Shown here: positions 1-18,770 of the stretch, piece after piece
Layout of the letters: the number at the start of each line of letters is the position of its first letter
Position numbering within the stretch: position 1 is the stretch's first letter
Source of the DNA: Thermoanaerobaculia bacterium
Lineage (GTDB): Bacteria; Acidobacteriota; Thermoanaerobaculia; Multivoradales; JAHEKO01
Assembly (NCBI GenBank): GCA_945787635.1
Contig: CALZIK010000176.1
Location: 1-44,428 of the forward strand
Length of the DNA stretch: 44,428 nucleotides
Direction of reading: 5' to 3'
The notes under the pieces: model-generated
The model's input: the letters and a program-made list of their open reading frames with translations, nothing else
What the model was told of the DNA's origin: nothing
The model's database searches: none
Program-made: the position numbers and the translations under genes

Positions 1-2189
1 CGGCGGAGCGGCTGGGCGGGTCGTCAGCCCTTCAGGGCCCGCGGGCCGAGGGATCATTGGGCCGCGCGGTCGGCGCGATCGGAACCAGCGGTGGCGACAA
101 GTGCACCGGCTGCGACCGCGGCCGCCGCTCGCGCTTCCCGACGGTCAGCCTGGGCGTGGATCGCGAGGGCGTCTACCGAGTGAGCTACGAGACCCTACAG
201 GCTTCGGGGCTCGATTTCACGAACGCTCGCACCGACTGGCTTGCGGTGACCCGCGAGGGAATACCGGTGCCGATTCACGTGTCGGGCGGGGCGACCTTCG
301 GTCCGGGCTCGTTTCTCGAGTTCGTGGGCGAGCCTGTGGACTCGCTTTACACCAAGACGAGCATCTACCGGCTGTCGGTCGATCGGCAGCGGGCCGCGCG
401 GGCGCAGACGCTGGCGTTTGCCGGCGGCGGCGCCGCCGAGATCTTCTACCTCGAGACGACGCGTTTCGAGAACCAGTCGAAGTATCACTTCGCTTCGCCG
501 ACCGAGGATCCTTGGTACGACCTTCGTGTGCTGGCGACCTCGAGCCCCGCGGAGGCTTCGGTTCCGTTCGCGCTGGAAGGTTGGGTGCCGGGCGCGGCGC
601 CGGTGACCTTGGATGTCGCGCTCTTCGGCGGCACTGACTTTCCGACCTCGCCGGACCACCATGTGATCGTCGAGGTCAACGGCTACCAGATGGCCGAGGA
701 GTGGTTCGACGGTCTGGCCGTTCCGGAGCTGGTGGCCGAGGTTTCGGACGGTACGCTTTCGGCATCGGTCAACACACTGACGATGAAGCTGCCCCACGAC
801 ACCGGTGCGCAGTACGATCTGGTCAACTACGACCATCTGATCGTGACTTACCCGCGGGCCTTCGCTGCGGCGGACGGGGCTCTGGACTTCGCGTCCTCGG
901 GCTCGGACTTCGCGGTCACTGGTTTCGTGTCTTCGGATGTGGTGGCCTACGCACGGCTCAACGGAGCGCTGGCGCGCCTGGGCGTCCAGGTCAGGGGCGC
1001 GCCGGGGGCCTACGAGGCCCGGTTCGGCGGGATCGCCGGATTCGGCGAGAGCGCCGAGTACTGGGTGGCCAGTGGGGCGGGGGTCCTGACGCCCTCGATC
1101 GCCCATGCCACCGAGCCGGTGGACTGGGTGGAGCGGGAAGTGGACGTGGTGGTGGTGTCGCACTCGGACTTCATCGACGGGCTCGCCCCTTGGGTTTCGC
1201 GACGAGAGTCCGAAGGGCTGTCGGTCAAGGTGGTGGATGTCGAGGCGCTCTACGCGACCTTCACGCACGGCGTGGTGGATCCGGAGGCGATCCGGCGTTA
1301 TGCACGGGCGGCTCATGCGTGGGGGGCGCGGTACCTGCTGCTGGTCGGCGGCGACACCTACGACTACTTCGACTATCTGGGCGTCGGCTCGGTCAGCTTC
1401 GTTCCGAGCCTGTACGCCCGGACGGACACAATCGTCAGTTACGCGCCGGTCGATCCGCTCTACGGTGACGTGGACGGGGATCTTGTGCCGGACATGGCGG
1501 TGGGGCGCTGGCCGGTGCGCACCGCGGCCGAGCTCGAGGCGGTGCTTTCGAAGACGCTGTCGTACTCGAACGTGGGCGAAGGCCTCACAGCGGTGATGGC
1601 CTCGGACGGCCTGGACCTGGCGTCGGGCTACTCGTTTGCGAACGATAGCGAGGACATGGCTGCGATTCTGGGCGGCTCGTGGCAAACGGATCGGGTGTAC
1701 TTGGACGAAATGGACGTGCCGGAGGCGCGCGAGGCGTTGATTTCGGGGATGAGCTCCGGGCCGTCGCTGACCAGCTACTTCGGGCATTCGGGTCTGACGG
1801 TGTGGAGCTTTGACGGACTGTTCACGTCGGACGACGTCGGCGAGCTGACGAATGCCGGAGACCCGACGGTGGTGACGCAGTGGGGCTGCTGGAACACCTA
1901 TCACGTGTTGCCGACGTACGAGACACTGGGCAACCAGCTGCTGTTGGCTCCCGATCGGGGGGCGGCGGCGGTGCTGGGAGCGTCGACTTTGACCGAGGCG
2001 TTGTCGGAGCGTCGGCTCGGCCGGCGGGTGTTCGAGCGCTTGGCGGCGCCCGGAGTCCGGTTGGGCGACGCGATCACGGCGGCCAAGCAGGATCTGGCCG
2101 AAACCGATCCCGGTCGATTGGATGTGATCCTGGGCTGGACGCTCCTGGGCGATCCGACCCTGACGATCGTGCCGGAGGGCTCCGAGTAG
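1..2189 (+). CDS. C25 (gingipain-like) cysteine peptidase, 5' end cut by window edge
   Basis: The frame is open to the left edge, so the gene starts outside the window; the TTG at 57 is only an internal codon. The product resembles family C25 (clan CD) cysteine peptidases, which are exported endopeptidases. The diagnostic pair is visible: SYFGHSG with the His codon at 1785-1787, and QWGCWNTYH with the Cys codon at 1887-1889, 34 residues apart, close to the His/Cys spacing in gingipains. The part before about position 1130 is a beta-rich N-terminal region typical of such proteins (it begins near VSLGVDREGVYRVSYETL). The stop is followed after 54 bases by the lasso precursor start, on the same strand, so co-transcription is likely. 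Whether it acts on the lasso leader is speculation; a general secreted protease is the simpler reading. The signal peptide cannot be seen. Confidence 0.8.
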   Translation, partial: AERLGGSSALQGPRAEGSLGRAVGAIGTSGGDKCTGCDRGRRSRFPTVSLGVDREGVYRVSYETLQASGLDFTNARTDWLAVTREGIPVPIHVSGGATFGPGSFLEFVGEPVDSLYTKTSIYRLSVDRQRAARAQTLAFAGGGAAEIFYLETTRFENQSKYHFASPTEDPWYDLRVLATSSPAEASVPFALEGWVPGAAPVTLDVALFGGTDFPTSPDHHVIVEVNGYQMAEEWFDGLAVPELVAEVSDGTLSASVNTLTMKLPHDTGAQYDLVNYDHLIVTYPRAFAAADGALDFASSGSDFAVTGFVSSDVVAYARLNGALARLGVQVRGAPGAYEARFGGIAGFGESAEYWVASGAGVLTPSIAHATEPVDWVEREVDVVVVSHSDFIDGLAPWVSRRESEGLSVKVVDVEALYATFTHGVVDPEAIRRYARAAHAWGARYLLLVGGDTYDYFDYLGVGSVSFVPSLYARTDTIVSYAPVDPLYGDVDGDLVPDMAVGRWPVRTAAELEAVLSKTLSYSNVGEGLTAVMASDGLDLASGYSFANDSEDMAAILGGSWQTDRVYLDEMDVPEAREALISGMSSGPSLTSYFGHSGLTVWSFDGLFTSDDVGELTNAGDPTVVTQWGCWNTYHVLPTYETLGNQLLLAPDRGAAAVLGASTLTEALSERRLGRRVFERLAAPGVRLGDAITAAKQDLAETDPGRLDVILGWTLLGDPTLTIVPEGSE

Positions 2190-2229: not shown

Positions 2230-2239
2230 GGAGGGAGGG
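2230..2239 (+). promoter_or_regulatory. Strong Shine-Dalgarno for the lasso precursor
   Basis: GGAGGGAGGG lies 4-9 bases before the GTG at 2244. It is the best ribosome-binding site in this part of the window and decides the start of the precursor in favour of GTG 2244 over the in-frame ATG at 2202, which has no such site. Confidence 0.65.
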
Positions 2240-2243
2240 CGCG

Positions 2244-2435
2244 GTGGACGCTTCCGGGCACCTAGAGCGGCAGCTCGCGCCGGAATCTCGGCGTCCGAGC
2301 GGCACCGCCCCGTCCGTCAAGAAGGCCTACGTGGCGCCCCATCTCGAGGCCTACGGCGATTTGCGCACGCTGACTCTAGGAGGCTCACCGGGCGTGGGCG
2401 ACAGCGGCGGAGCGTTTTCCGAGTTCCCTCTGTAG
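2244..2435 (+). CDS. Lasso peptide precursor (A gene)
   Basis: This 63-residue peptide (GTG start chosen for its strong Shine-Dalgarno) carries the lasso leader motif YxxPxLxxxGxxxxxT as YVAPHLEAYGDLRTLT. By the family rule that Thr is at position -2, the leader ends with TL and the core is GGSPGVGDSGGAFSEFPL (2379-2432, 18 residues). Gly1 and Asp8 are placed for an 8-membered macrolactam ring; the core has no Cys, as in class II lassos. The tail has bulky Phe13 and Phe16 that could act as plugs. The next two genes are a lasso-type cyclase and an HPr-kinase-like protein, which supports the call. The core does not resemble any named lasso peptide I recall. Alternative start: ATG 2202 (77 residues). 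Alternative cleavage after TLG would give a 7-membered ring. Confidence 0.87.
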   Translation: MDASGHLERQLAPESRRPSGTAPSVKKAYVAPHLEAYGDLRTLTLGGSPGVGDSGGAFSEFPL

Positions 2436-2514: not shown

Positions 2515-4305
2515 ATGACATCGTTCGGGGCACTGTTTCATCGTCGGCGCGAACCGTTGGCCCCTGACGATGTTGCACGGCTTCGGCGCGCTCTCGATTC
2601 GGAGCGAGGCGTCGACGTTCCCGGAGGATCCAACCAGGCCAGCGGCACCCCCGCGTCGACCGCCTTCGTTCTGCTGACCTCGCGGCGGTCGGGTTCCGAT
2701 GGGGAGGCCCGCCCGGCGTCGCTGGGCGCCACTCCCAGAGTTTTGGCGAAACAGCTCGGTTTCGAGCTCGAGTCCGAGTCCGAGCCGCGCTCCGCGATAC
2801 TCGCTCGTGCGTACCGGCGCGTGGGCCACTCCCTTTGGCTCCGGGTCGAGGGGCCATTCGGCCAGGTGGTCTTTGAGCCCGTGGAGCACCGGCTCGTCCT
2901 GGTCTGCGACGCCCTCGGGCGACGGCCTCTCTACTTTTTCGAAACAGAGGATCTGGTCGTGGTCGCTAGCGAGATCGAGACGCTCTTGCGCTGGCCGGCC
3001 AAGAACTGGTGCCTCGACGCCGAGCAGCTGACGCGTTTCTTTGCGCTCGAAGTGCCCGGCCCAGGAAAGACGTGTTTTCGGGAGATTCGACAGGTCGAGA
3101 TGGGGTCGGCGGTCGTCTTCGGCCCCGAAGGCTCCGAGACGCACCGTTTCTGGAGGCCGCTCGCGATCCGAAGGAGCAAGCTTCGCAGTGATTCTGACTT
3201 CGCTGCGGCCTTTCTGGAACGCCTCGGCCGGGCGGTGAGGCGGAGCCTGGGTGATCCGGCGAAGTTGGGCATCATGCTGAGCGGCGGCTTGGACTCGACC
3301 TCGCTGGCGGTATTGGCGGCGAGAGCTGCTCGAGAACAGTCCGCCTGCGTGGGGGCGGCCTCGTGGGTCTTCGACGACCTTTCGCAATGTGACGAACGAA
3401 GCTGGATGGCCGAGACGTTGGCCGGCGAAGACTTCGAGGTCATCCGGATCGCCGGTGACCGACTCTGGCCACTGTGCGAGCCGGATCTGTTCTCGAGTCT
3501 GCCGGGCTCCCCGGAGGAGAATCCGTACCGGGCTCTCAAAAGGGCCCTGTACCGGACCTGCGCGCTCCGAGGTCGCGACCGGCTCTGGAACGGAGGCCCA
3601 GCGGACTTTCTCCAGCGCGGTGGGAACCTCTATTTGCGCGACCTGTTACTGGCTGGGAGATGGCGGACGGCCGCCAGCTGCGCCGTCCGCCAATTGCGCG
3701 ACGACGGCGCGATGTCCGCACTGGCGGCCCTGGCGAGGGTCGCCTGGCCGGCAGGCCGGGGGCGAAACAAGGTCGTGCCACCGTGGCTGACCCGGCAGGC
3801 CGCGAGCCGGCTCGAAGCGACACCCGTTCATTCGGAGTACCCGCCCGCCGCCGCGCGGGACGTCACCCTGTTTCTGCGCATGCAGGCCCGGAGCCAGGTG
3901 TTGGAAGCCCAGCTGGCTCGCACCTGCGGAGTGGACGTTTCCAGCCCCTACTGGACCCGCGGATTCGTCGAGCTTCTGCTCTCGCTACCGACCCACGCGG
4001 TCTTCCGGCCGGGAACCACCAAGTTCGTCGCGCGAGAGGCGATGCGCGGCATCGTGCCGGAATCAATCCGCCTGCGGCAGGCGCCGACGCCGCTCGATCC
4101 GCTCTTCGAGCGTGGTTTGTTCGAGCGCCAAACGGATCTGGTTCAAGACCTGCTCTTCGATGGCGAGCCGATCTGGGACCGTTTCGTAGACCGGAGCTTC
4201 GTGAGTGCGATCGGTCTCGAGTCGCCGTCAGCTCACAAGTTGATGCTGTGGCGGTGCGCGAGCTTCGAGCATTGGCGGCGCCGGCACGGCTGGGAGGTGG
4301 GTTGA
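2515..4305 (+). CDS. Lasso peptide cyclase, asparagine-synthetase-like (C gene)
   Basis: The 596-residue product has the two-part layout of class B asparagine synthetases: an N-terminal Ntn-hydrolase-like domain (about 1-210) and a C-terminal ATP-pyrophosphatase domain with the PP-loop SGGLDST at 256-262. In lasso pathways this enzyme adenylates the ring Asp/Glu side chain and closes the macrolactam. The start at ATG 2515 (MTSFGALFHRRREPL) aligns with the family N-terminus; an upstream ATG at 2467 adds only 16 unconserved residues. The glutaminase nucleophile Cys2 is absent, as usual for lasso cyclases, so it should not use glutamine. The later family motif (GxGxDExF) appears as NGGPADFLQ, keeping the Asp but losing the Glu. 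It sits directly after the precursor. Confidence 0.85.
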   Translation: MTSFGALFHRRREPLAPDDVARLRRALDSERGVDVPGGSNQASGTPASTAFVLLTSRRSGSDGEARPASLGATPRVLAKQLGFELESESEPRSAILARAYRRVGHSLWLRVEGPFGQVVFEPVEHRLVLVCDALGRRPLYFFETEDLVVVASEIETLLRWPAKNWCLDAEQLTRFFALEVPGPGKTCFREIRQVEMGSAVVFGPEGSETHRFWRPLAIRRSKLRSDSDFAAAFLERLGRAVRRSLGDPAKLGIMLSGGLDSTSLAVLAARAAREQSACVGAASWVFDDLSQCDERSWMAETLAGEDFEVIRIAGDRLWPLCEPDLFSSLPGSPEENPYRALKRALYRTCALRGRDRLWNGGPADFLQRGGNLYLRDLLLAGRWRTAASCAVRQLRDDGAMSALAALARVAWPAGRGRNKVVPPWLTRQAASRLEATPVHSEYPPAAARDVTLFLRMQARSQVLEAQLARTCGVDVSSPYWTRGFVELLLSLPTHAVFRPGTTKFVAREAMRGIVPESIRLRQAPTPLDPLFERGLFERQTDLVQDLLFDGEPIWDRFVDRSFVSAIGLESPSAHKLMLWRCASFEHWRRRHGWEVG

Positions 4306-4306
4306 A

Positions 4307-5233
4307 GTGGTTCGGCCGCCGACGAATCCGATCCATCTTTACTGGCCGCGGGCGGCCGGCTCTGAGAAGACCACTCGGTACGAGATCGCGGGCGTCGAGC
4401 TCGTGTCGAATCGCGAGTTGCCTGAGCTCGAGCCGTTTCGTTCCGGCTGGGCCGCGGCAGAGCTACCGGGATCGGCGAGCGTGATTCGCGTTTCAGCCGA
4501 CTTGCCGGTGGTCTACGATGGGCGGGGCTGGGTCGGCGGACGGGATGTCGCCGTTATCTGCCGCGCAGAGGGCCGATCGTACCGGCTCGAGGTCGGGAGC
4601 CGCGCGGTGGTCGAGATCGCCGAGCGCGAGAACGTAGTGCAGATCAAGGTGCCGGGCGAGGTGCGCGACAAGGACAGCCGACTGGCCGTTCTCGGCCCGG
4701 GGCTGGCGCTGGCTCTGGCCCTGGGCGGCCGGTTCAGCCTCCATGCCGGCGCCTTTTTGAGGCGACGTCGTGCCGTCTTGGTGCTGGGTGAGTCTGGTGC
4801 GGGCAAGTCCACCCTGTCTGCGGCGTTCGAGGCGCAGCGCACCGGCTCGAGGCTCGCGGACGACATCCTCCCGGTTTCCGTCGATGTCAGCGGCCGGCTC
4901 GCCGCGCATCCACGGTTTCCGCAGCTCAAGCTCGGTTCCGAGGATCAGTGGCTCGGGGCGCGAGATGTCGAGGTTGCCGAGGTTCTGCTCCTGCGACGCG
5001 ACCGGCGGTCGGCGCGGCTGACCGATCGACGCTTCAGTGCTCGCGAAGCGGCGCTCCGTCTGATCGAGAACACCGTCGCCTGTCGGTTGTTCGGGCCCGG
5101 CCTCCGAATCGCCCACCTCGACGCATTCACAGCCGCAGCGATGGTCGTGCCGATCTCCGACCTGTCGGTGCCGGACGGGCTCGACAGGCTATCCGGGACG
5201 ATAGCCTATCTGCGGGGCGAGGGTCGGCCCTGA
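4307..5233 (+). CDS. HPr-kinase/phosphorylase-like protein of the lasso operon
   Basis: The 308-residue protein has a Walker A motif GESGAGKST at 161-169, a His in SLHAG just before it and a downstream LADD, the arrangement of the HprK C-terminal kinase domain. The first 140 residues are the beta-rich region found in HprK-like proteins next to asparagine-synthetase homologs; no PqqD/RRE fold is apparent in it. Related kinases in some lasso clusters (paeninodin type) phosphorylate the C-terminal Ser of the precursor. This core ends in Leu, so the substrate here is unclear; Ser3, Ser9 and Ser14 of the core are possible. GTG 4307 lies one base after the cyclase stop and has GGAGG nine bases upstream, so translation is likely coupled. 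Confidence 0.78.
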   Translation: MVRPPTNPIHLYWPRAAGSEKTTRYEIAGVELVSNRELPELEPFRSGWAAAELPGSASVIRVSADLPVVYDGRGWVGGRDVAVICRAEGRSYRLEVGSRAVVEIAERENVVQIKVPGEVRDKDSRLAVLGPGLALALALGGRFSLHAGAFLRRRRAVLVLGESGAGKSTLSAAFEAQRTGSRLADDILPVSVDVSGRLAAHPRFPQLKLGSEDQWLGARDVEVAEVLLLRRDRRSARLTDRRFSAREAALRLIENTVACRLFGPGLRIAHLDAFTAAAMVVPISDLSVPDGLDRLSGTIAYLRGEGRP

Positions 5234-5245
5234 CTTGGATTCCAG

Positions 5246-5270
5246 GGCCGGGGCGGCGACTCGCCAGGCC
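5246..5270. terminator. Possible bidirectional hairpin between convergent genes
   Basis: GGCC (5246-5249) and GGCC (5267-5270) flank GGCG (5252-5255) and CGCC (5262-5265), giving a bulged stem in the 36-base gap between the kinase stop and the stop of the minus-strand cyclase. There is no T-run and the region is very GC-rich, so chance is not excluded. Confidence 0.28.
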
Positions 5271-8200
5271 TAGGCCCAGGCCCAGACCAGCTGCTCTTCG
5301 CTGGTGATCGAGGTAGTCAAGCTGACCACGCCATGGGCGACCAGGTCGTCGAGCTCGTGGTTGATCTTTTGAACCAACGCCGAGGGGTGGACGTCGCTAG
5401 CCTTCTCGGCCTCGAAGATTCCCACCCATGCATTGCGATGGCTCTTCTTGGCGATGTACAGGGCACGGTCTGCGATGGCGTTGACCTGCTCCCACGACAG
5501 AGCGCCCGGAAAGCGGCGCAGAAACGGGTAGAAGGCAAAGCCGATCGAGCACGACAGATGAGCCGTCTTGCCGAGCCCCAACTCGAACTCGTGCGCGGCG
5601 ACGCTGGTCCTGAGCCGCTCGGCAAGATCCTCCGCGGATTCGCGGCGCGTCCTGCGGGCGATGATCAGAAACTCGTCGCCGCCCCAGCGCACGATGGTGT
5701 CGGATTCGCGACAAGTGGCCTCGAGAAGATCCGTGACCTGAAGCAGGACACGGTCGCCTGCGGCATGACCGTAGGTATCGTTGACCTCCTTGAAGCCGTC
5801 GAGGTCGAAGATCAGAAACAGGGTGTCGGGCTCTTCTTCGGTGACATGAGTCTCGGGCCGTCGCTTCAATTCCTCGTAGTAACGATCGACCAGCGCGAGG
5901 TCCGAATCGATGTTGTTGACCAGGAAACGGCGGTTGCGGAGTCCGGTGAGAGAGTCGGTGACGCTCGCGAGCTCGACCTTGTCGATGGCCTCTTGAAGAT
6001 CACGGTTCCTCAGCGCCAGCTCCTTGGTACGTTCGGCGACCTGCCGTTCGAGAGATCGGCGCTGCTCGGTCTCGCGACGCCGTTTCGCGGCCAGATTGGC
6101 GAGGATTGCCAAGACGCCTGCGACCGCGGCGGCGGCATAGAGAAGGTAAGCCCACCAGGTCTGCCAAGGTGGCGGCACGACTCGAATAGGTATCGCCAGG
6201 CCGTTCTCGTTCCAGACGCCGTCGTTGTTGGCCGCCTTGACGCGGAGGATGTAGCTGCCCGGGTCGAGGTTGGTGTAGGTCGCGCGGTTGAGGTTTCCGA
6301 CCTCGTTCCAGTCGGTCTCGAAGCCTTCAAGGCGATAGGAATAACGATTCTTCTGAGGCGCGGAGTAGTCCAGAGCGGCGAACTCGAAGGAGACGACATA
6401 GTCCTTGTAGGAGAGCTCGATGCTCCGGACCTCTGAGAGCGGCACCTCGGTTTCGACCTCTTTGTTGAACTTGAGGAAGGAGGTCACTACGAGCGGCGGC
6501 ACGTGGTCGTTGGCGCGAATCAAGGAGGGGTGAAAGCTATTGAACCCTTCATTGCCGCCGAAGATCATCTCTCCGGTGGAGGTCTTCCAGTAGGAGGCGA
6601 AACTGAAGTCCTTGGACAACAGACCGTGGGTCGTGTCGTAGGTGCGCACACGCTCGGTTCTGGGATCAAAGCTCACGAGGCCCTCGTTGGTGCTCATCCA
6701 AAGGTTGCCGTCGTCATCTTCGAGGATGCCGTAGATGACTTCATTCGGAAGGCCGTTGCGGGAGTCGTAGTGCGCGAAGCGTGCGGTGTTGGCGTCCCGA
6801 TCCTGCTTCGTCCACTTGTTCAGCCCACCGCCCTGAGTCCCGATCCACAGGGTACCGTCCGCGGTCTCGAGCAGGGAAAAGACGGTGTTGTTGCTCAGGC
6901 TGTTGGGGTTGTCGGGATTGTTTCGGTAGCGAGTAAACGATCCGGTGGCGCGCTCGAAACCGTTCAGCCCGCCGCTGTCCGTGCCGATCCAAAGCGTCCC
7001 ATCGGCCCCTTCGAGCAGGCACAGAACCTGGTCGCTGCCGAGGCTCGCGGCGTTGTTGGGGTCATTCTGATAGCGAATGAAGGCGGTTCGTTCCCCGTCG
7101 AAGCGATTCAAGCCACCCCCGTAGGTGCCCACCCAGAGGACGCCCTGGCTGTCTTCGTAGATCGTCGTTACGGCATCGCGGCTGAGACTGGTCGGATCGC
7201 CGGGGTCATTGCGGAAATTCGTGAACTTTCCAGTCGCCGAGTCGAGCCGGTGCAGCCCGCCTTCGTACGTCCCGGCCCATAGCGTCCCTGATCGGTCGGT
7301 AAAGAGGGACATCACCCGGTCGTCGCGCAGGTTGCCGTCGTCGTTTTCGCCCTTGCGAAAGTGGCGAACCTGGCCGGTCTTTCGGTCGAGAAGGTCCAAC
7401 CCTTCGTAAGTGCCGACCCAGAGACGGCCCGAGGGATCCTCCGAGAAGGAAGTCACTGTATTGCTGCCCAGGCTGCTCTCGGGCTTACCCGGGTCGTGGC
7501 GAAAACCCGAGAAAGAGCCGGTGACCGCGTTCCACTTGTTGATGCCGTTTTGGGTTCCGATCCAAAGCACGCCACCGCGATCCTGGTGAATCGACATGAC
7601 CTGGCTGTCGCTCAGGGAGGTGGGGTCGGCAAGGTTGCTGACGTGGATGGCGAACTCGTTTCGATCGGAGATCAACTCGTTCAACCCGCCGTCGGTGCCG
7701 ACCCAGAGGATGCCGCTGGCATCTTGGAAGATCGCGCGAACGCGATCGTCGCTCAGGCTGGCTGGTCTGAGCGGATCGTGTCGGAAGCGCTCGAACTTGC
7801 CGGTTTCTCGGTCGAGGCGGTTGAGCCCTCCTTCGTACGTGCCGATCCAGAAGTTGCCGGAGCTGTCTTCAAAGATCGTCCGAACGCGATCCTGGCTGAG
7901 CGTGGTGTCGTCCGTGGGGTCGTGGCGGAAATGGGTAAACAAACCGGTCTCGGCATCGAGCCGGTCCAAGCCACCGCCGTTGGTGCCGACCCATATCGTT
8001 CCGGCGGCGTCCTGGAGAATGGCTCGAACCTGGTTGTGGCCGAGGCTGCCGGGCTGCGAGGGATCATGAAGGTAGCGCGAGAAGGTCTGCGACTCGGGGT
8101 CGAAGAGGTTGAGCCCGGACTCCGTGCCCACCCAGATCCGCCCCGACTGATCTTCCATGAGCGAGCGCACCCGATTGGCCGAAATCGAAGTGCCGTCCAT

Positions 8201-8626
8201 TTCCTCGTTGACAAAGTGCCGGAAGGACCGGGTCTTCGGCTGCCAGAGGTTCAGGCCGCCCTCGTTGGTGCCGATCCACAGCTGGCCCGCCCTGTCCATG
8301 AGCAGGGTCCAGATCCAGTTGTTGGAAAGCGAGCCGGGATCGTCTTCGACGCTTCGAAAGACCGTGAAGCTGTTGCCATCGTACTTGGCGAGGCCGTCCT
8401 GCGTGCCGAACCAAATGAACCCGGTGGCGTCCTGAACGATAGCGTTGACCGCGCTGTGGGGTAGGCCGTCTTCCACGGTCATCCGGTCGAAGGGAATCTT
8501 GCGCTGCTGACCGAAGGCCGGCGCCAGGGCGGCGAGCAGGCAGACCAGTCCGGCGAGAAGAGACGTGGTAGCCCGCCGGTACGCCGCCGGGGAACCGGTT
8601 GAAGTGTGGGTTCGACGAGCAAGCAT
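5270..8626 (-). CDS. Ligand-sensing propeller diguanylate cyclase
   Basis: The 1118-residue membrane protein has a signal peptide (about 1-40), 14 Reg_prop-type blades (about 50-690; each with a variant of D..G.LWIGT..GGLN), a Y_Y_Y domain (about 735-812), one membrane helix (about 818-842), a short coiled coil and a GGDEF domain. The active site GGDEF is at 982-986 and the inhibitory I-site RESD at 973-976, both intact, so it should make cyclic di-GMP from GTP with product inhibition. Fourteen blades fit two seven-bladed propellers, as in hybrid two-component glycan sensors, but the histidine kinase is replaced by GGDEF. About 70 residues of unknown role follow the GGDEF domain. Its ATG shares one base with the stop of the upstream EAL gene (TGATG), so the two are translationally coupled. 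Confidence 0.9.
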   Translation of the reverse strand: MLARRTHTSTGSPAAYRRATTSLLAGLVCLLAALAPAFGQQRKIPFDRMTVEDGLPHSAVNAIVQDATGFIWFGTQDGLAKYDGNSFTVFRSVEDDPGSLSNNWIWTLLMDRAGQLWIGTNEGGLNLWQPKTRSFRHFVNEEMDGTSISANRVRSLMEDQSGRIWVGTESGLNLFDPESQTFSRYLHDPSQPGSLGHNQVRAILQDAAGTIWVGTNGGGLDRLDAETGLFTHFRHDPTDDTTLSQDRVRTIFEDSSGNFWIGTYEGGLNRLDRETGKFERFRHDPLRPASLSDDRVRAIFQDASGILWVGTDGGLNELISDRNEFAIHVSNLADPTSLSDSQVMSIHQDRGGVLWIGTQNGINKWNAVTGSFSGFRHDPGKPESSLGSNTVTSFSEDPSGRLWVGTYEGLDLLDRKTGQVRHFRKGENDDGNLRDDRVMSLFTDRSGTLWAGTYEGGLHRLDSATGKFTNFRNDPGDPTSLSRDAVTTIYEDSQGVLWVGTYGGGLNRFDGERTAFIRYQNDPNNAASLGSDQVLCLLEGADGTLWIGTDSGGLNGFERATGSFTRYRNNPDNPNSLSNNTVFSLLETADGTLWIGTQGGGLNKWTKQDRDANTARFAHYDSRNGLPNEVIYGILEDDDGNLWMSTNEGLVSFDPRTERVRTYDTTHGLLSKDFSFASYWKTSTGEMIFGGNEGFNSFHPSLIRANDHVPPLVVTSFLKFNKEVETEVPLSEVRSIELSYKDYVVSFEFAALDYSAPQKNRYSYRLEGFETDWNEVGNLNRATYTNLDPGSYILRVKAANNDGVWNENGLAIPIRVVPPPWQTWWAYLLYAAAAVAGVLAILANLAAKRRRETEQRRSLERQVAERTKELALRNRDLQEAIDKVELASVTDSLTGLRNRRFLVNNIDSDLALVDRYYEELKRRPETHVTEEEPDTLFLIFDLDGFKEVNDTYGHAAGDRVLLQVTDLLEATCRESDTIVRWGGDEFLIIARRTRRESAEDLAERLRTSVAAHEFELGLGKTAHLSCSIGFAFYPFLRRFPGALSWEQVNAIADRALYIAKKSHRNAWVGIFEAEKASDVHPSALVQKINHELDDLVAHGVVSLTTSITSEEQLVWAWA
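6600..8480 (-). repeat. Tandem propeller-blade repeats in the coding sequence
   Basis: About fourteen imperfect tandem units of roughly 120-150 bases encode the Reg_prop blades of the diguanylate cyclase. Adjacent units share long similar runs around the codons for WxGTxxGGLN, so this stretch could recombine or be misassembled. Confidence 0.7.
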
Positions 8627-10842
8627 CAGATCAGCTCGGGTGGCCTGGTTTGATCGGTCCGTGCCTCGATCTTATCGAACTTGTCGAATAAGTCCCTGAA
8701 GTCCTCCGGCGGAACCGGCCGGGCGAAGAGGAAACCCTGCACACAGTTGCAGTCGTGCTGGCGGAGAAAATCGAGCTGGGCGAGGGTCTCGACGCCCTCG
8801 GCGACGACCTCCAGGTTGAGCTTATGGGCCATCGCGATGACCGAGGAGATGATCGCCGAGTCGCTGGTGTCCCGTTCGATTCCGCTGATGAAGGACCTGT
8901 CGATCTTGAGGACGTCGAGTGGGAAGATCTTCAGATACGAAAGCGCGGAATTGCCGGTTCCGAAGTCGTCTACAGCGACCCGGACTCCGAGCTTCTTGAG
9001 TCCGGCCAGTGCCTCGAGCGACCGCCCGTCGTCGAGTGCGACACCTCGCTCGGTCAGTTCCACATCCAGAAGCGAAGCGTCGAGGCCGGTCTCTTGGAGG
9101 ATCGCCCGGACCCTCTCGACGAAGTCCTCCTCGTGAAGTTGATAGCTGGAGAGGTTCACCGCGAGCCGGATCCTGGGCATGCCGGCCTGGAGCCAGGTCT
9201 GGTACTGGCGACATGCCGTGCGCAAGACCCATTCGCCGATCCGGGTGATCAATCCGGCGGCCTCCGCGATCGGGATGAACTCGTCGGGCGAGATCGGTCC
9301 GAGATCCGGATGAAGCCATCGCGCCAGCGCCTCGGCGCCGACAACTTTCCCGGAACGGCTGTCGAGAAGGGGCTGGTACGTGAGGTGAAGCTCGTTCTGC
9401 TCGATCGCTTTGTGGAGCTCGTTTTCGAGATCCAGCTCGCGTGCGGAGGCCGCGTTCATCCAGTCGCTGTAGAACTGGAATCGGTTGCGGCCGAGATCTT
9501 TGGCGTGATACATCGCCGACTCGGCTTGCTGCAACAGCTTGTGAGCGCCGGAGCAGTCTGCGGGGAACACCGCAATACCCACGCTGGCGGTCAGGAAAAA
9601 CTCCCGGTTCTCGACCGTGAAGGGTATCGCGAGCTGTCCGAGCACACGCTGGATCGCTTTGGCGGCGCCGGCGACGTCTTCGAGATCGCTGAGCAGGATC
9701 AGGAATTTGTCTCCTCCCCAACGTGCCACTTGCTGACCGGCCTCCCTGACCAGATAGTCGCCTCTGCGAAGCGAGATCCGGAGGCGATCGGCCACGTTGG
9801 TCAGCAGGGCGTCGCCGAATTCGGGCCCGAGAGTGTCGTTGATCTTCTTGAAGCGGTCGACGTCCAGATACGCGACCGCGATGAGGCTTCGATTTCGCTC
9901 GGCTCGGGCGAGCGAGCCCTGGAGCAGCTCGAGGAACATGTGCCGGTTTGGGAGGCCAGTGAGCCGGTCGTAGTTTGCGAGGTGCTGGATCTTCTCCTCG
10001 GCTCTCTTGATGTCGGTCACGTCGCGAATGACGCCGTGCACGCTCACCGCGTGACCGGCCGAGTCGCGCCGGACCTGGGTTCGATGCTGAACCGTGCGCA
10101 CACCGCCGTCACGCAACAGCACCCGGTGCTCGAGCTCTGATTCGTTCAGGTCGTCGACGAGTCCGAGGAGCGCCGCGCGAGCTTGCTCGCGGTCCATCGG
10201 GTGGATCGAGTCGAGCAGAGCCTCGGGAAACGATGAGACTTCGGCTGGAATGCCGAGTATCCGGGTGGTTTCGGCAGATGCGGAAACCGTCCGGCTCCTG
10301 AGATCGAGCTCCCAAGTGCCGAGGCGGGCGATCCGCTCGGTCTTTTCGAGCCGCTGGCGACTTGCCGCCAGGCCCCTTCGAGCCCGATCCGCCTCGATCA
10401 GAAGGTCGATCCTGTTGCTGAGCACCGTCCAGTTCACGGGCTTGACGGCGAAATCGGAGGCGCCACTGGCATAGGCTTGGTTGATGCTCTCGCGATCGCT
10501 CAGGCCGGTCATGATGATGATCGGAACGGTGTGTCCACCCGGAAGCTGGCGTATGGTCTCGCAAACCTCGAAGCCGGACCGATCGGGGAGGCCGATATCG
10601 AGAAGAATCAGGTCCGGAGGGGAGGCGAGGTATTGCTCGATGGCCTCCGCAGCGTCGGTCGCGCCGACAACCCTGAGGTCGTTCGCTTCGAGGACCCGAC
10701 GACCCAGCGCAAGCAGCGCATTGTCGTCCTCGATGATCAGAACCGTGCTGCGGTCGGGCTCGGAGGTTCGACGCGAGCCGATCCATGCCTGGGAGCCTTC
10801 GGCCGCGGGTGGGGGGTTGGTCATCTGTGAGACGCTCAGCAC
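8626..10842 (-). CDS. Response regulator REC-PAS-GGDEF-EAL, likely c-di-GMP phosphodiesterase
   Basis: The 738-residue soluble protein has a receiver domain (about 30-150, phospho-acceptor Asp82 in LILLDIGLPD), a PAS domain (about 175-285), a GGDEF domain (about 290-455) and an EAL domain (about 470-725). The GGDEF signature reads GGDKF (376-380) and there is no RxxD I-site, so cyclase activity is doubtful; such domains often bind GTP as regulators. The EAL motifs look intact: EAL at 504-506, NLS, ELTE, DDFGTG and EGVE. It should therefore degrade cyclic di-GMP under phosphorylation control. GTG 10842 is chosen because AGGGG lies eight bases upstream; ATG 10824 is an alternative. No partner histidine kinase is nearby. 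It is the first gene of the operon with the propeller cyclase, an opposing activity. Confidence 0.9.
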   Translation of the reverse strand: MLSVSQMTNPPPAAEGSQAWIGSRRTSEPDRSTVLIIEDDNALLALGRRVLEANDLRVVGATDAAEAIEQYLASPPDLILLDIGLPDRSGFEVCETIRQLPGGHTVPIIIMTGLSDRESINQAYASGASDFAVKPVNWTVLSNRIDLLIEADRARRGLAASRQRLEKTERIARLGTWELDLRSRTVSASAETTRILGIPAEVSSFPEALLDSIHPMDREQARAALLGLVDDLNESELEHRVLLRDGGVRTVQHRTQVRRDSAGHAVSVHGVIRDVTDIKRAEEKIQHLANYDRLTGLPNRHMFLELLQGSLARAERNRSLIAVAYLDVDRFKKINDTLGPEFGDALLTNVADRLRISLRRGDYLVREAGQQVARWGGDKFLILLSDLEDVAGAAKAIQRVLGQLAIPFTVENREFFLTASVGIAVFPADCSGAHKLLQQAESAMYHAKDLGRNRFQFYSDWMNAASARELDLENELHKAIEQNELHLTYQPLLDSRSGKVVGAEALARWLHPDLGPISPDEFIPIAEAAGLITRIGEWVLRTACRQYQTWLQAGMPRIRLAVNLSSYQLHEEDFVERVRAILQETGLDASLLDVELTERGVALDDGRSLEALAGLKKLGVRVAVDDFGTGNSALSYLKIFPLDVLKIDRSFISGIERDTSDSAIISSVIAMAHKLNLEVVAEGVETLAQLDFLRQHDCNCVQGFLFARPVPPEDFRDLFDKFDKIEARTDQTRPPELI

Positions 10843-10860
10843 GATCGAATCCCCTGAATG

Positions 10861-10883
10861 CGGCGCGCGCCTTCGGCGCGCCG
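10861..10883 (-). promoter_or_regulatory. GC hairpin just upstream of the EAL gene start
   Basis: CGGCGCGC (10861-10868) and GCGCGCCG (10876-10883) form a perfect 8-bp stem with a 7-base loop, ending 18 bases before the GTG start and close to the AGGGG ribosome-binding site. It could tune translation of the c-di-GMP operon. Confidence 0.5.
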
Positions 10884-11002
10884 ACCCGTCGGATTCCGCT
10901 ACTCAACCAGGCAATTCCTGTACCGTTTGCGCCCGTGCGGACCTGTCTGAGTGAATTCTGGTAGGTGTGACCGCAAATTCAAATATGTAGATGGTTTCCT
11001 GC

Positions 11003-11032
11003 ATAATATTACTGAAATAAAAACCCTGTGGA
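11003..11032 (-). promoter_or_regulatory. Putative sigma70-type promoter of the c-di-GMP operon
   Basis: Read on the minus strand, TCCACA (11032-11027) and TATTAT (11008-11003) are separated by 18 bases. They match 4/6 and 5/6 of the -35 and -10 consensus and lie in the AT-rich part of the gap. Transcription would start near 10996, leaving a leader of about 150 bases. Confidence 0.42.
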
Positions 11033-11068
11033 CGCCACGCGGCCGCGATTGCGGCACGAATTCCGCCG

Positions 11069-11124
11069 AAAAAAGCCCCATAGCCGCCAAAAATTAAGCG
11101 GCAGAAGACAAGAAATGGCGGCTA
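11069..11124 (-). terminator. Intrinsic terminator after the sigma54 activator gene
   Basis: On the minus strand the stop codon TAG begins a 9-bp perfect inverted repeat, TAGCCGCCA (11124-11116) with TGGCGGCTA (11089-11081), followed six bases later by a run of six T (11074-11069). A second, shorter stem GCCGC (11102-11098) with GCGGC (11087-11083) uses the same 3' arm. This is the best intrinsic terminator in the window. Confidence 0.6.
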
Positions 11125-14097
11125 CGGCGCGGCGGACTGGGGCTCCCGGAGGAGCTCGGCCGTGCGCGAACGGTAGGTCGGAGCGGTCACTCCCAGCAAC
11201 TGCGCGCCGGTCGAGACATCGTCGGGGAGTCGCTGAAGGATCTCTTCGAGCAGAACCGTCAGAGCCTTGCGGATCAGATCCTGTCCGTCGGACTGGCTGA
11301 TGACGACCTGCGCCAGGAGGGTGCGAACCTCTCCCCAGCGACCCGCGCGCGGCGAAAGACCGGCGCGTTGCTGCCTCTCTGTCTTCGAGAGCCGCCGCCG
11401 GAAGGTGGTTTCGGGAATGCCCAGCAGGCTCGCGGCGCGGCGAGCCACTCCATTGGCGGCCTCGTTTGCCGCCAGGACCATGTCTTCGCGCACCCAGGTT
11501 CCGAGCGGAAAGAGCATGTCACCGTCGTCGGTCAGCGCGAGATCTACCTCTCGGCCGAGAATCTCTCGGAGCCGGCCCCAGCTGTCTTCGTCGACGAGGG
11601 TCGGTCCGGTGGTCCGGGTCCGTGGCCGATCGGCGTCGATCACCACTTTTCGGGAGCGATCCGTGCCCGCCGAGCCCGCGCTCTCCTGGGGCAGGTCGAG
11701 ATCGGATGCGTCCAACTCGTTTCCGTCACAGAGGATGACGGCCTGCATGATTCGATTCTGGAGCTCGCGCACATTCCCGGGCCATCCGTAGCCGACCAGC
11801 CCGGCCTCCGCGGCGCCGGTGAAGCGTCGAACGCTCTTTTGGTATTGAACCGTGAAGGTGTCGAGAAAGTGGCGAGCCAGGTGGAGAACGTCGTCGGGCC
11901 TCTGCCGGAGCGGCGGAACCTCTATGCGCACCACGTTCAAGCGATAGTAGAGATCCTCTCGGAAGCGTCCGGCCGCCACTTCCATCGCAAGATCGCGATT
12001 GGTGGCTGCGACGATGCGGACGTCAACTCTGCGGATCCGGCTACCGCCGACCGGACTGAACTGCTTTTCCTGCACGAAGCGGAGTAGCTTGCTCTGGACC
12101 TCGAGCGGCAGCTCGCCGATCTCGTCGAGGAACACCGTGCCGGTGTCGGCCTCGGCGAGCTGCCCCCGCCTTCTGACCTGCGCGCCGGTGTAGGCGCCCT
12201 TTTCGTGCCCGAACAGCTCGCTTTCGATGAGCGTGGTCGCGATCGAGCCGCAATCGACGATCACGAACGGCCGCTCGCGGCGGCTCGAAAGCTCGTGCAC
12301 CGTGCGCGCCAGCAGTTCCTTGCCGGTGCCACTTTCGCCGGTGATCAGCACGGTCGCGTCGGTGGGAGCGACCCTGCGCGCCGTCCCGACGGCGTCCTCC
12401 ATCTCGCGCGACCGGTAGATCAATTTGGCCTGTTGAAGGGCCTGGCGCAGCTCGTTGAGCTCGGCCTTGAGCTGCCGGCGCTCTCCTTCCTGGCGGGCGC
12501 GGTCGAGCTCGGCCAGGCGAGCACGGTCGAGAGCCACGGCGAGTTGGCCGGCGAGGGCTTTGAGGAAGATGAGATCCGAGGACTCGAGTACCAGGCTCTC
12601 TTCCTCACCGGCCAGAAATAGCGCCCCGAGTGAGGCACCGCTGGTTCGCAGCGGCACTGCGTAGGTAACTTCGTCGCCGACTTCGTCCGCTCTGCCTTCC
12701 TGTGGCTCGCCGGCGGCGACGGCGATCTTCAGGAGGTCGCGTTCACGGTGGGAGAGCTCGACCGTCTCGACCCGCTGCTGGGTTCGTGAATCAGGGCTCC
12801 GACGGGTGAACCCGCGGCTGAGCTCCATCGAGCCGTCGTCTCGAGTCGAAAACACTCCGATGCGATTCGGCTTGAAGGCCCCGTAGAGACGCTCGGCGAC
12901 CTCGCCGGACAGACTGTCGAAGTCCTGGTTGACCGCGATGACATGGATCGTGTCCCAGAGGAGCACCATGTTGCGGTAGTCCTTGGACAGATTGCCGGTG
13001 AAGATCCCGCTCAGGCGGTCGAATGCCCCGGACTCCTCCAGTCCCGAGCGCTCCTCCCAGTCAACCAGGCAGCCGCCGCCGAGGCGCTTGGCGGAGTTGA
13101 GCGCCTGGTCGGCGCGGCGGACGAACTCGAGCGGCGAGAGTCTGGGCGTCTGCTTCGCAACGAACGAGGCAATGCCGATGCTGAAGCCCAGGCGCACGGC
13201 GCCGTCCAGAAAAGATTCTTCAGCGATGCTTCCGAGGACCTTGGTCGCCACTTCGCGCGCGGTGACGAGATCCGTCTCGGAAAGGATCGCGGCAAAGATG
13301 ACGCCGCCGTAGCGCGCCACGGGATCCGAGCTTCGCAGCGCGGATCGGAGCCGCAGGCTGACATCGTGGATGATCGAGTCTCCGGCATCCCGGCCGAATC
13401 TCTCGTTGATGGTCGCGAAGTCGTCCGGATTGATCAGCAGCAGCGCCAGAGGCTTGCCCGAATGGCGAGCCATCTCGAACTCCTCGGTCAGGATCGCCTG
13501 GAATCCGGTCCGGTCGGGGAATCCGGTGATCGGATCCTTGAGGATGGCCGCGACCTGCGAGGCGTGACTGGCGAGAGCGCCGCCAAGCGCGAAGAGCCAC
13601 TCCCACCAGGGTACCGGATCGTCCTGAGCGAGCTTTTCCAGGAAATCTCTGTTCTTGAGCCGCTCGGCGAGTGATTCCCTTTGGGTGCGGAAGCGCAGAG
13701 CCAGCCACGCCGAGGGTGGAGCCGAGCTTGGCAGGGTGTCGGATCGGCGGCGGGCCGGCGATTCCGGCTCGCCCCGCCCGCGGTCGGCCGGCCAGACGCC
13801 GCCGGACCAGAAAGACTCGACCGACGGCAGCGGAAGCAGGCTGCACAAAGGGTCCTCGCTCGGAACCAGAGTCCCCGTGTCGCGCCCCTCGGCCCGCGTT
13901 CGCTGCTGCGCGGCAAACGCCTCCGCCGCCTCCAGGCTTGCCAGCTCCGGCACGCCCGGCACGCTGCCGTCCTGGATGAGAAACGGCTGCGAAAGGCCGC
14001 TCAGCGAGGCCGGGACGTAAAGCGCCGCGCTCCGCGCGCCGCTCAGGCTCCGGATTCCGTGGACGTAGGACTGGAGAAGTTCGGTGGTTTCGATCAT
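11122..14097 (-). CDS. Sigma54-type transcription activator with degenerate GGDEF and GAF domains
   Basis: The 991-residue protein has an N-terminal region (1-170) of unknown fold, a GGDEF-like domain (about 180-345) whose signature is GGVIF (264-268), a GAF-like domain (about 365-530), a short coiled coil and an AAA+ domain. The AAA+ part has GESGTGKE at 587-594, GAYTGA at 634-639 (the GAFTGA loop that contacts sigma54, with the common Phe-to-Tyr change) and DEIGEL. Two Fis-like helix-turn-helix segments follow, near 885-905 (ARRAASLLGIPETTFRRRL) and 962-985. I prefer ATG 14097 over the TTG at 14133. The degenerate GGDEF may sense GTP or cyclic di-GMP rather than make it. It lies upstream of the cyclic-di-GMP operon on the same strand, and may control it or the divergent efflux operon. 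Confidence 0.87.
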   Translation of the reverse strand: MIETTELLQSYVHGIRSLSGARSAALYVPASLSGLSQPFLIQDGSVPGVPELASLEAAEAFAAQQRTRAEGRDTGTLVPSEDPLCSLLPLPSVESFWSGGVWPADRGRGEPESPARRRSDTLPSSAPPSAWLALRFRTQRESLAERLKNRDFLEKLAQDDPVPWWEWLFALGGALASHASQVAAILKDPITGFPDRTGFQAILTEEFEMARHSGKPLALLLINPDDFATINERFGRDAGDSIIHDVSLRLRSALRSSDPVARYGGVIFAAILSETDLVTAREVATKVLGSIAEESFLDGAVRLGFSIGIASFVAKQTPRLSPLEFVRRADQALNSAKRLGGGCLVDWEERSGLEESGAFDRLSGIFTGNLSKDYRNMVLLWDTIHVIAVNQDFDSLSGEVAERLYGAFKPNRIGVFSTRDDGSMELSRGFTRRSPDSRTQQRVETVELSHRERDLLKIAVAAGEPQEGRADEVGDEVTYAVPLRTSGASLGALFLAGEEESLVLESSDLIFLKALAGQLAVALDRARLAELDRARQEGERRQLKAELNELRQALQQAKLIYRSREMEDAVGTARRVAPTDATVLITGESGTGKELLARTVHELSSRRERPFVIVDCGSIATTLIESELFGHEKGAYTGAQVRRRGQLAEADTGTVFLDEIGELPLEVQSKLLRFVQEKQFSPVGGSRIRRVDVRIVAATNRDLAMEVAAGRFREDLYYRLNVVRIEVPPLRQRPDDVLHLARHFLDTFTVQYQKSVRRFTGAAEAGLVGYGWPGNVRELQNRIMQAVILCDGNELDASDLDLPQESAGSAGTDRSRKVVIDADRPRTRTTGPTLVDEDSWGRLREILGREVDLALTDDGDMLFPLGTWVREDMVLAANEAANGVARRAASLLGIPETTFRRRLSKTERQQRAGLSPRAGRWGEVRTLLAQVVISQSDGQDLIRKALTVLLEEILQRLPDDVSTGAQLLGVTAPTYRSRTAELLREPQSAAP

Positions 14098-14144
14098 CTG
14101 CGGCGTCCCAGGCCTGAGGCCCGGAGGGGGCAAGCGAAGCGTGA

Positions 14145-14279: not shown

Positions 14280-15485
14280 ATGAGCTTGGAGACCGGCGCA
14301 AGTCACAAGAAAAGAACGCGGACTCGCGTCATCTGGATCTCGAGTCTCGTCGTGCTCCTGGTGGCGGCAGGAGTCGTAGTCATGAACATGGGGGCCGCGA
14401 AGGCCAACGGGGCGGATGCTCCCGAGGCGGACTCGGCCGCGTCGGCCGGTGAAGGTGGGGACTCCGAGGGCGAAGAGGAAAACGGCAAGGCGCCGGTCCC
14501 GGTCGAGATTGCCGCGGTCAAGCAAGGCGAGATCTCGGCCTACATCACCACGACCGCGAATCTGGTCGCCGAGAACGAGGTCCGCCTGCTCAGCGAGGTG
14601 GAGGGCCGCGTAGCCCGTCTCCTGGTCGACGAGGGCGACTACGTGCGCGAAGGCCAGCACCTGGCGACTCTGGTGCGCGACGACGAAGAGATCAATCTTC
14701 GCAAGACCGAGTTGAAGGAGACCAACGCCCGTCTGGCCTACGAGCGAGGCCAGGATCTGATCGCCAAGGAGCTGATCAGCCGCGAGGAGTACGACAAGTT
14801 CCAGATGGACTTCAACATTGCGCAGCAGGAGAAGGCCGAGGCGGCCTGGCGGCTGCAGAAGACGACCATCAAAGCGCCGTTTGCGGGGCAAATCAGCGAG
14901 CGCATGATCCAGGTCGGGCAGAATCTGCGCATGTCCGACGAGATGTTTCGCTTGACCGATATCGACCCCCTGGTGGCGCGGATCTTTCTGCCCGAACGAG
15001 ACGTGCTCGGGATGGAAAAGGGCGGCGAGGTCTGGATCACCCTCAACGCCGACGCTACGACGAAATTTGCGGGCCGGATCCGCCAAGTGAGTCCGGTGGT
15101 CGATACCGCGACCGGAACGATCAAGGTGACGGTCGAGGCGGTGAATCCGCCCCGAAACGTCCGCTCGGGCAGCTTCGTGACCGTCGACATAGTCCGGGAA
15201 ACGCGAACCGCGGCAATGCTGGTTCCGCGGGAGGCGGTCTTGCGGGAGCTGCAATCGGCTCACGTCTTCGTCTTTTCCTCCGACGGCAAGGCCGAGAAGC
15301 GCCAGGTTGAACTCGGGCTCGAAGAGGGGCTCTGGGTTCAGGCGGTTCAGGGCGTGAGCGTCGGTGACAGCGTCATCGTCGCCGGGCAGGGCGGTTTGAA
15401 GGAGGGGGCGCCGGTCAAGCTCGTGGGCGCCGACGACGAGCCCGATCCGGCCACCGAAGGCAAAGAGGCGAGCCAGGCGCCATGA
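14280..15485 (+). CDS. RND efflux periplasmic adaptor (membrane fusion protein)
   Basis: The 401-residue protein has an N-terminal membrane anchor (about 19-37), an acidic low-complexity linker (about 45-65) and the HlyD/AcrA-type adaptor core: the first lipoyl half (EVRLLSEVEGRVARLLVDEGDYV), a helical hairpin, the second lipoyl half (TTIKAPFAGQISERMIQVGQ), a beta-barrel and a C-terminal membrane-proximal domain. It would bridge the inner-membrane permeases to an outer-membrane channel. There is no lipobox Cys, so it is held by the helix. AAGGGAG at 14266-14272 is a good ribosome-binding site. Its stop overlaps the next ATG by four bases. The substrate is not predictable. No TolC-like gene follows, so the channel must be encoded elsewhere. 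Confidence 0.9.
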   Translation: MSLETGASHKKRTRTRVIWISSLVVLLVAAGVVVMNMGAAKANGADAPEADSAASAGEGGDSEGEEENGKAPVPVEIAAVKQGEISAYITTTANLVAENEVRLLSEVEGRVARLLVDEGDYVREGQHLATLVRDDEEINLRKTELKETNARLAYERGQDLIAKELISREEYDKFQMDFNIAQQEKAEAAWRLQKTTIKAPFAGQISERMIQVGQNLRMSDEMFRLTDIDPLVARIFLPERDVLGMEKGGEVWITLNADATTKFAGRIRQVSPVVDTATGTIKVTVEAVNPPRNVRSGSFVTVDIVRETRTAAMLVPREAVLRELQSAHVFVFSSDGKAEKRQVELGLEEGLWVQAVQGVSVGDSVIVAGQGGLKEGAPVKLVGADDEPDPATEGKEASQAP

Positions 15486-18400
15486 GGCTCGTCGATTTTT
15501 CTCTTCGCCGCCGCGTGACCATCTCGATGGCGGCGGTGGCCCTGATGCTGTTCGGCCTGGTGGCCTTCGGCCGCCTGTCGATCAACCTACTGCCGGATTT
15601 GAGCTACCCGAGCCTGTCGGTGGAAACTCGACTGCCGGGGGCTGCGCCCGCCGAGGTCGAGGCCTTGATCTCCCGACCCATTGAAGAGGTCGTCGGGATC
15701 GTCGCCGGCGTCAAGCGGTTGACTTCGGTCTCGAGGCCCGGTTTATCTCAGGTGACGCTGGAGTTCGAGTGGGGCCGGAACATGGACTTCGCCTCTCTCG
15801 ACGTGAGGCAGAAGCTCGACCTTCTGCGACTCCCGAGGGAGGCCGAAAAGCCGGTCTTGCTGCGGTTCGATCCAGCCAACGACCCGATCGTCAGACTCTA
15901 TGTCACCGGCGGTCAAGATCTCTACCAGCTGCGCTACGTGGCCGAAGAGGTCCTGAAGAAAGATCTTGAATCCACCGAAGGCGTGGCCGCGATCAAAGTC
16001 AACGGCGGCTTCGAGGAGGAGATTCAGGTCCAGGTCGACGAGGGCAAGCTCGCGCTCCTGGGCTTGAGCATCCAGGACGTCAACTCGGTGCTTCTGCGCG
16101 AGAACGTCAATCAGGCCGGAGGCAGCCTCTATGAGGAGGAGGCTCGCTACCTGGTGCGAGCCAACAACGAGTTCGAGGGTCTGGCCGATATCGACAACAC
16201 CGTGGTGATGTCGCACCTCGGACGCAGCGTGAAAGTGTCCGACATCGCGAGTGTGCGGCGCGGCCACAAGCAGCGCGAGGTGATCACGCGTTTCGGTGGC
16301 GGCGAGGCGGTCGAGCTGGCCATGTACAAAGAGGGAGACACCAACACGGTGCAGGTGGCAAGGTCGATCCTGAAGCGGCTCGAGAGCGTCAAGGGCGAGC
16401 TGCCCGAGGGCATCGAGGTCGTCACCGGGATCGACCAGTCCGAGTTCATTCAGGCCTCGATCGACGAGGTTTTGATGAACGCGCTGGTGGGCGGCGGCAT
16501 CGCGATTCTGGTGCTGCTGTTCTTCCTCAAAGACCCTCGGAGCACGTTGATCATTGGTCTTTCGATTCCGATCTCCGTGGTGGCGACGTTCTTTCTGATG
16601 TACCGGACCGGAACTACCTTGAACGTGATGTCGCTCGGGGGCCTCGCGCTCGGGGTCGGGATGCTGGTCGACAACGCCATCGTGGTTCTCGAGGCGATCT
16701 ACAAGCGTCGCGAGCAGGGCGCGTCGGCGGTCGAAGCGGCCCGCGAGGGAGCCTCGGAGGTGGGAACCGCGGTCGCGGCATCCACCCTGACCACCGTGGC
16801 CGTGTTCCTGCCAGTGGTGTTCCTCGAGGGCATCGCGGCCCAGCTGTTTCGGGACATGGCTCTGACCGTTTCGTTCTCGTTGATCGCCTCGCTGGCGGTG
16901 GCGTTGACCTTGATTCCCATGCTGGCGGCGCTGCTCGGGGGCGACAAGCCGGCAGCGCCGCCGGGACCGGCCGAGATTGACGACCGCGGAACCCGGGCGG
17001 GGCGGATCCGCCGTCGCGTCCTCTTGAGCCTCCGCTTCGTTTTCGTGACCGTGCCGTCGTGGGTGACGTTCGCGGTGCGCTGGCTGCTCAGGTCGCTGGG
17101 CAGACTCATCTCGATCGCTAGCCGGCCGCTCACCGCCGCTTTCGACGCCGGCCTCGGGCTGGTCTCCGGTCTCTACCCGCGCGTACTGCGCGCGGCCTTG
17201 CGGGCACGCCCGCTGGTGCTCGCGATCGCCCTCTTGGCGTTCGCCGCGGCTGTTCAGATGGTTCCGGGCCTGGGATTCGACTTGATTCCAACCTTCTCGC
17301 AAGGGGAGTTCAGCTTCACCGTCGTGCTGCCCGAGGGTACGCCGCTCGAGGCGACCGATCGGTTTCTCGCCGACGTCGAGACCGTGCTCGACGGCGAGAC
17401 TAGGGTCGGCACCTTTGCCGGTATCGTCGGCGGCCGCGGACTGTCGCTCACCAATACCGGCAGCGAGGGCGAGAACACGGCGCGGTTGCAGGTTCGGATG
17501 GCGTCCGGCAGCACCGCCGAGGATGAGCAGGCGGTGATCGAGCTGATTCGAGAGCGCCTCGAGCAGTCCGGGCTCGCCAACTCGAAGTTCGAGCGCCCGA
17601 CCTTTTTCAGCTTTCGCACCCCGATCGAGGTGGAAATCTACAGCGACGGCCTGACGGAACTTCATGAAACGGCGGACCGCATCCGGGCTCGCGTGGAACA
17701 GGTGCCGGGGCTGGTGGACGTCAAATCGTCGGCGGAGCTGGGCAATCCCGAGCTCCAGATCCAGTTCGACCGCAATCAGCTGGCGCGCTTGGGACTGAAT
17801 CTCGGCGACGTCGCCGACACGATTCGCAACAAGGTCCAGGGCGAGGTGGCGACCAGGTTCACTGAGGGTGACCGGGAAATCGATATCGTGGTGCGATCGG
17901 TAGATCTGGGGCGAGCCTCGGTCAGCGACGTCAGAGGCTTCATCGTCGGACAGCGCAACGGCGTGCCGATCTACTTAAAGTCGGTGGCGTCGGTCGCCTT
18001 GACCGAAGGCCCCAGCGAGATACGGCGCATCGGCCAGAAGCGGGCCGGGGTGATTTCGGCCGACATCCGTGGCCGCGACATGGCCGCGGTGGCGACCGAC
18101 GTGCGGGCGGCACTCGACGAGATGGTCCTCCCGGCCGGTGTCATCGCCGCGCTGTCGGGCCAGGAGGAGGAACGGGCCGGAGCGCAGCGCTCGCTGGCGC
18201 TGGCGATGGCGCTCGCCATCTTTCTGGTCTACCTGGTGATGGCTTCCCAGTTCGAGTCGTTCCTGCACCCGTTCGTGATCATTTTCACGCTGCCACTTGG
18301 CGGAATCGGCGTGGTCGCGGCGCTCGCGGTGACCGGTCGATCGATCAACATCGTGGCGATGATCGGCGTGGTGATGCTGGCTGGGATCGTGGTCAACAAC

Positions 18401-18769: not shown

Positions 18770-18770
18770 C

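Follow-up and report, generated by a model that had tools for sequence, protein, structure and literature searches.

Organization of the locus

The window, that is, the whole stretch of 44,428 nucleotides that was analysed, carries near its start the genes of a lasso precursor (A), a macrolactam cyclase (C) and a kinase (K), preceded by the end of a giant peptidase gene. The features are as follows:

1-2189, plus strand: C-terminal part of a giant SdrD_B-repeat/Peptidase_C25 protein, cut by the contig start (PF01364, E 4.9e-64)
2230-2239, plus strand: putative ribosome-binding site GGAGGGAGGG for the GTG start (sequence)
2244-2435, plus strand: lasso precursor A, 63 aa, with an alternative ATG start at 2202 (family profile, E 3.7e-18)
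2244-2378, plus strand: leader peptide with the YxxPxLxxxGxxxxxT motif (sequence; NF033521 above cut-off)
2379-2432, plus strand: core peptide GGSPGVGDSGGAFSEFPL, with a predicted Gly1-Asp8 ring and a predicted Ser3 phosphosite (conservation across 24 family cores)
2515-4305, plus strand: macrolactam cyclase C, asparagine synthetase-like (PF00733, E 1.3e-23; NF033535, E 1.9e-48, below cut-off)
4307-5233, plus strand: HprK-like kinase K (invariant H146, P-loop GK, D185-D186; AlphaFold model)

The C25 gene ends 12 bp upstream of the ORF of precursor A. Read from the GTG at 2244, this precursor comprises 63 codons up to position 2432, with the stop codon at 2433-2435, whereas the ATG at 2202 would give a precursor of 77 aa. 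The GTG start, already chosen in an earlier note made from the letters of the window, is plausible given the putative ribosome-binding site just upstream.

The leader (...YVAPHLEAYGDLRTLTL) harbors all fixed positions of the YxxPxLxxxGxxxxxT motif and matches the NCBIfam model lasso_leader_L3 (NF033521) with 19.4 bits for a cut-off of 19. A regular expression combining the leader with a correctly spaced acidic residue had a single match in the window and none in 300 first-order Markov simulations. The end of the precursor reads ...KKAYVAPHLEAYGDLRTLTL-GGSPGVGDSGGAFSEFPL, so that the Asp indeed falls at core position 8, as the earlier note had claimed. With the ORF present, the leader motif complete and the NF033521 score above cut-off, the lasso precursor that it had proposed at 2244-2432 is confirmed, and its broader lasso reading gains support from the lasso-type cyclase and kinase next to the precursor. 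Recomputation of the macrolactam mass of the core gave 1618.726 ([M+H]+ 1619.734), in agreement with the 1618.73 and 1619.73 that had been calculated by hand. The predicted product is an 18-residue class II phospho-lasso peptide, with an [M+H]+ of 1619.73, or 1699.70 with the phosphate. None of six family core strings was found in the literature searched; judged by its sequence, GGSPGVGDSGGAFSEFPL represents a new member of a lasso peptide family.

Conservation of the precursor family

Copies of the family were sought with a profile of the precursor tail in 72 genomes of the same order, and 23 strong copies were found in 18 of them. One further family precursor is encoded in another class of the same phylum (G123), and one in a Chloroflexi MAG (L078). 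Among the 24 distinct family cores, position 1 is Gly in 23, position 3 is Ser or Thr in all, and position 8 is Asp or Glu in 23, the exception, GGSVIDIGDS, corresponding to a one-residue insertion; some of these cores came from patterns already demanding an acidic residue. A leader-only first search, made without this demand, found Asp or Glu at position 8 in 8 of 8 copies of the core type of the window. The earlier note had singled out homologs in which Asp8 is not conserved as the observation that would speak against its reading, and the family instead retains an acidic residue at this position.

A second family precursor, with the core GGSPGIGDSGAAFTEQLPI, is present in the genome of the window (G000:C170:3729-3833; about 3640-3857 of L157). 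On contig C170 it immediately follows a second C25 gene, and it has no cyclase of its own. Another of the 23 copies, from the same order, adjoins a C25 gene and carries an in-frame TAG in its leader (G038:C42:40567-40677, L204); by its sequence, it is probably a pseudogene. Two tandem, near-identical and Cys-containing precursors (YETPEIVDLGDARELTLGRPNL...) were also noted beside a cyclase, B1 and B2 (about 4461 and 4695 of L065; G037:C25), and belong to a different lasso-like family.

Cyclase and kinase

The best NCBIfam match of cyclase C is the lasso cyclase model NF033535, below the strict cut-off of that model. Both the ATP-site motif SGGLDS and a downstream Asp-Glu pair are conserved between this protein and 14 relatives. 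A start at 2515 is preferred to the ATG at 2467, as judged from relatives, which begin at the equivalent of MTSFGALF. A fusion of B1 or B2 to the N-terminus of the cyclase was considered and rejected, because this region aligns like a normal GATase-like domain that lacks the Cys. A scan of named genomes for close relatives mostly returned distant asparagine synthetases, and was informative only for L077 and L078.

Kinase K, of 308 aa, has only weak Pfam matches and also falls below the strict NCBIfam cut-off. Its His, its P-loop GK and its Asp-Asp pair are kept in an alignment with 16 relatives. The AlphaFold model (pLDDT 84.7) finds its best PDB matches in HPr kinase/phosphatase (HprK/P) and PEP carboxykinase (PEPCK), with overall TM-scores that are modest because the catalytic core alone is common. 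In Bradymonas, a Gly1-Asp8 lasso precursor is phosphorylated on Ser3 by BsfK, an HprK-like kinase that tolerates Thr at position 3 and acts faster in the presence of B1 (PMC10368454). By analogy, kinase K is predicted to phosphorylate core Ser3: the HprK fold, Gly1, the acidic residue at position 8, the invariant Ser or Thr at position 3 and a core without C-terminal Ser together point to a BsfK-type modification. K is likened to BsfK here by its fold and by these core features.

Dispersed B1 and B2 genes

Neither B1 nor B2 lies within the window. A B1-like PqqD protein (RRE) is encoded in trans in the same genome (G000:C82:32715-32915, E 2.8e-18); it is 59% identical to the B1 of the congener G001, and the gene neighbourhood is common to G001 and G002. 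As for B2, none was found in the assembled genome, which is 97.7% complete. Both congeners encode a B2, each near an amidase gene, with a gene for an RNA-binding protein between the two in G001. In the genome of the window, a 78%-identical amidase gene and the RNA-binding-protein gene are located at the end of contig C132. This contig ends inside a short repeat (G000:C132:5370-5588, L076), about GACGGTCGACAGAGGCGTCGACCG, within a few hundred bases of the place where B2 would be expected. The missing B2 most likely lies in an assembly gap, because C132 breaks off where the congeners carry the gene; as the assembled genome itself lacks B2, an active pathway there is assumed.

The grouping of A, C and K, with B1 and B2 at two other places, is an unusual, dispersed arrangement. 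When B1 and B2 are encoded at such a distance from A, C and K, genome mining based on clusters can miss or mis-score the peptides.

A giant C25 peptidase linked to the lasso genes

A congener encodes a copy of the giant protein of 2560 aa, with 9 SdrD_B stretches followed by a C-terminal C25 domain. This copy, too, is truncated where its contig ends, and it is 69% identical to the window protein. The His (GHS) and Cys (WGCWN) motifs of the peptidase are intact in the window copy and in nearly all copies. Several full-length homologues start with segments that, judged by eye, resemble signal peptides, and these N-termini indicate that the giant peptidase would be exported in several homologues. 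A change of the C25 pocket matching the tail types of the cores (E-x-P-L versus F-R/K) was looked for, and the comparison was set aside because it is confounded with phylogeny.

A close C25 homologue lies at most 12 kb from 19 of the 23 family precursors, when 0.2 would be expected under random placement, although the formal probability of this linkage is overstated because the precursors are non-independent by shared ancestry. The order of the C25 and precursor genes varies among relatives. In the Chloroflexi MAG (L078), one compact operon encodes C25 (1707-9689), C (9692-11518), A, K (11789-12622), B1 and B2 (to 13297). C25, C and A are consecutive in G123, with B2 close by. Strong as it is, the pairing has exceptions: a congener retains the precursor in the syntenic position but has no C25 gene there. 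Two other family precursors have no C25 gene nearby, and members of the C25 family also occur at many loci where the precursor search found none. The conservation of this gene neighbourhood in two phyla suggests that the lasso peptide works together with the C25 protease. No pairing of a lasso peptide with a C25/gingipain-type peptidase was found in the literature searched, which lay mostly outside subscription journals.

Giant SdrD_B-repeat proteins were also observed beside lasso-type cyclase and kinase genes at L047, L050, L064, L066 and L068, with no C25 domain detected within the stretch covered. Several of these loci carry B1, B2 or precursors, those at L047, L050 and L064 being of other core types.

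A probably phosphorylated lasso peptide and its possible partner

From the gene content, the intact motifs, the conservation and the linkage observed, our best explanation is a locus for a class II lasso peptide that is phosphorylated on Ser3 and partnered with the linked C25 peptidase, a reading taken as a whole to which we give a probability of about 0.75. Its lasso chemistry is drawn from homology. The B1/RRE protein encoded elsewhere would bind the YxxPxL leader, and the HprK-fold kinase K would phosphorylate core Ser3. The transglutaminase-like protease B2 would then cleave behind Thr(-2)-Leu(-1), and cyclase C would link Gly1 to Asp8 around the ten-residue tail, which would yield the 18-residue phospho-lasso peptide.

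The partnership is proposed from gene neighbourhood, with the giant SdrD-repeat/C25 peptidase as a dedicated partner of the lasso peptide. Its likeliest form, still a tentative one in which an inhibitor role is a guess, would be that the lasso peptide binds to the extracellular C25 peptidase and either restrains or tunes it. The more specific idea of a dedicated paired regulator, for instance a reversible inhibitor, of the cell's own giant secreted C25 peptidase, which would make the peptide a ligand of a self protease and not an antibiotic, appears rather unlikely. The mature peptide may also be a substrate of the C25 peptidase. Most lasso peptides have no known biological role, and the pairing with a giant extracellular peptidase in two phyla offers a concrete partner for lasso function.

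Lasso peptides are commonly antibacterial, and the peptide could act alone, as an antibacterial compound or a signal, next to a functionally unrelated C25 gene that shared regulation or chromosome structure keeps in place. The many C25 loci without a detected precursor and the congener precursor without C25 agree with such independence, but it accounts poorly for a co-occurrence so far above random expectation, for the varying gene orders and for the single tight operon in the Chloroflexi MAG; we consider it somewhat unlikely. It is improbable that the C25 peptidase serves as a processing enzyme of the pathway, either replacing B2 as leader peptidase or trimming or opening the peptide outside the cell. 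The absence of a detected B2 from the genome and the intact C25 catalytic motifs would suit this role. Gingipains cleave after Arg or Lys, and one of these residues is often present near the C-terminus in the glutamate-8 subgroup of cores, whereas GGSPGVGDSGGAFSEFPL contains neither. The role of missing leader protease was rejected as the principal reading, because G123 and the Chloroflexi operon have B2 as well as C25, and both congeners encode B2 elsewhere. The leader would moreover be out of reach of the C25 peptidase, because several homologues begin with signal-peptide-like segments. There is only a slim chance that the cluster is decayed, with B2 really gone from this strain and its peptide no longer produced. 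The absence of B2 from a nearly complete assembly and the in-frame TAG in the same-order precursor of G038 point in that direction, but the amidase contig breaks off in a repeat close to the expected B2, the genome retains intact A, C, K, B1 and C25 domain, and it encodes a second precursor that is likewise intact.

Comparison with known systems

The closest likeness is to the bsf cluster of Bradymonas sediminis (BsfA/BsfK/BsfB1/BsfB2/BsfC), with its Gly1-Asp8 core carrying Ser3, its HprK-like kinase, and separate B1 and B2 proteins (PMC10368454). The two precursors differ in the penultimate residue of the leader, Ile in bsf (PMC10368454) and Thr in the window precursor. In addition, the bsf genes form a single cluster that includes an ABC transporter and a nucleotidyltransferase (PMC10368454), whereas at the window locus B1 and B2 are encoded in trans and a giant C25 peptidase gene accompanies the lasso genes, with no transporter noted. 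Paeninodin-type lasso peptides also have their precursor tailored by a kinase before leader removal, and this on a C-terminal Ser, which the window core lacks, according to the account of Zhu et al. 2016 given in PMC10368454. With peptidase family C25 (gingipains, PorU), the giant protein shares the Peptidase_C25 domain and the His and Cys motifs, its similarity to PorU models being below cut-off. Unlike gingipains and PorU, it is fused to long SdrD_B repeats, is linked to lasso genes and has the signature WGCWN. What is new is the linkage to a giant C25 gene and the dispersal of the B genes around an otherwise known lasso type.

Other neighbouring genes

No gene next to the lasso genes was recognized as a dedicated exporter. 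Positions 14280-21869 of the window encode an HlyD-type membrane fusion protein and then two large transporter-like proteins, the first of the RND/AcrB type; these RND-type genes, 9 kb off, are the nearest pump genes in the window and show no sign of a link to the lasso genes. Three large signalling proteins are encoded on the minus strand at 5270-14133: a Reg_prop/Y_Y_Y/GGDEF protein, a response regulator/PAS/GGDEF/EAL protein and a GGDEF/sigma-54 activator. The lasso locus is flanked by homologues of all three in G001 and by homologues of the first and third in G002.
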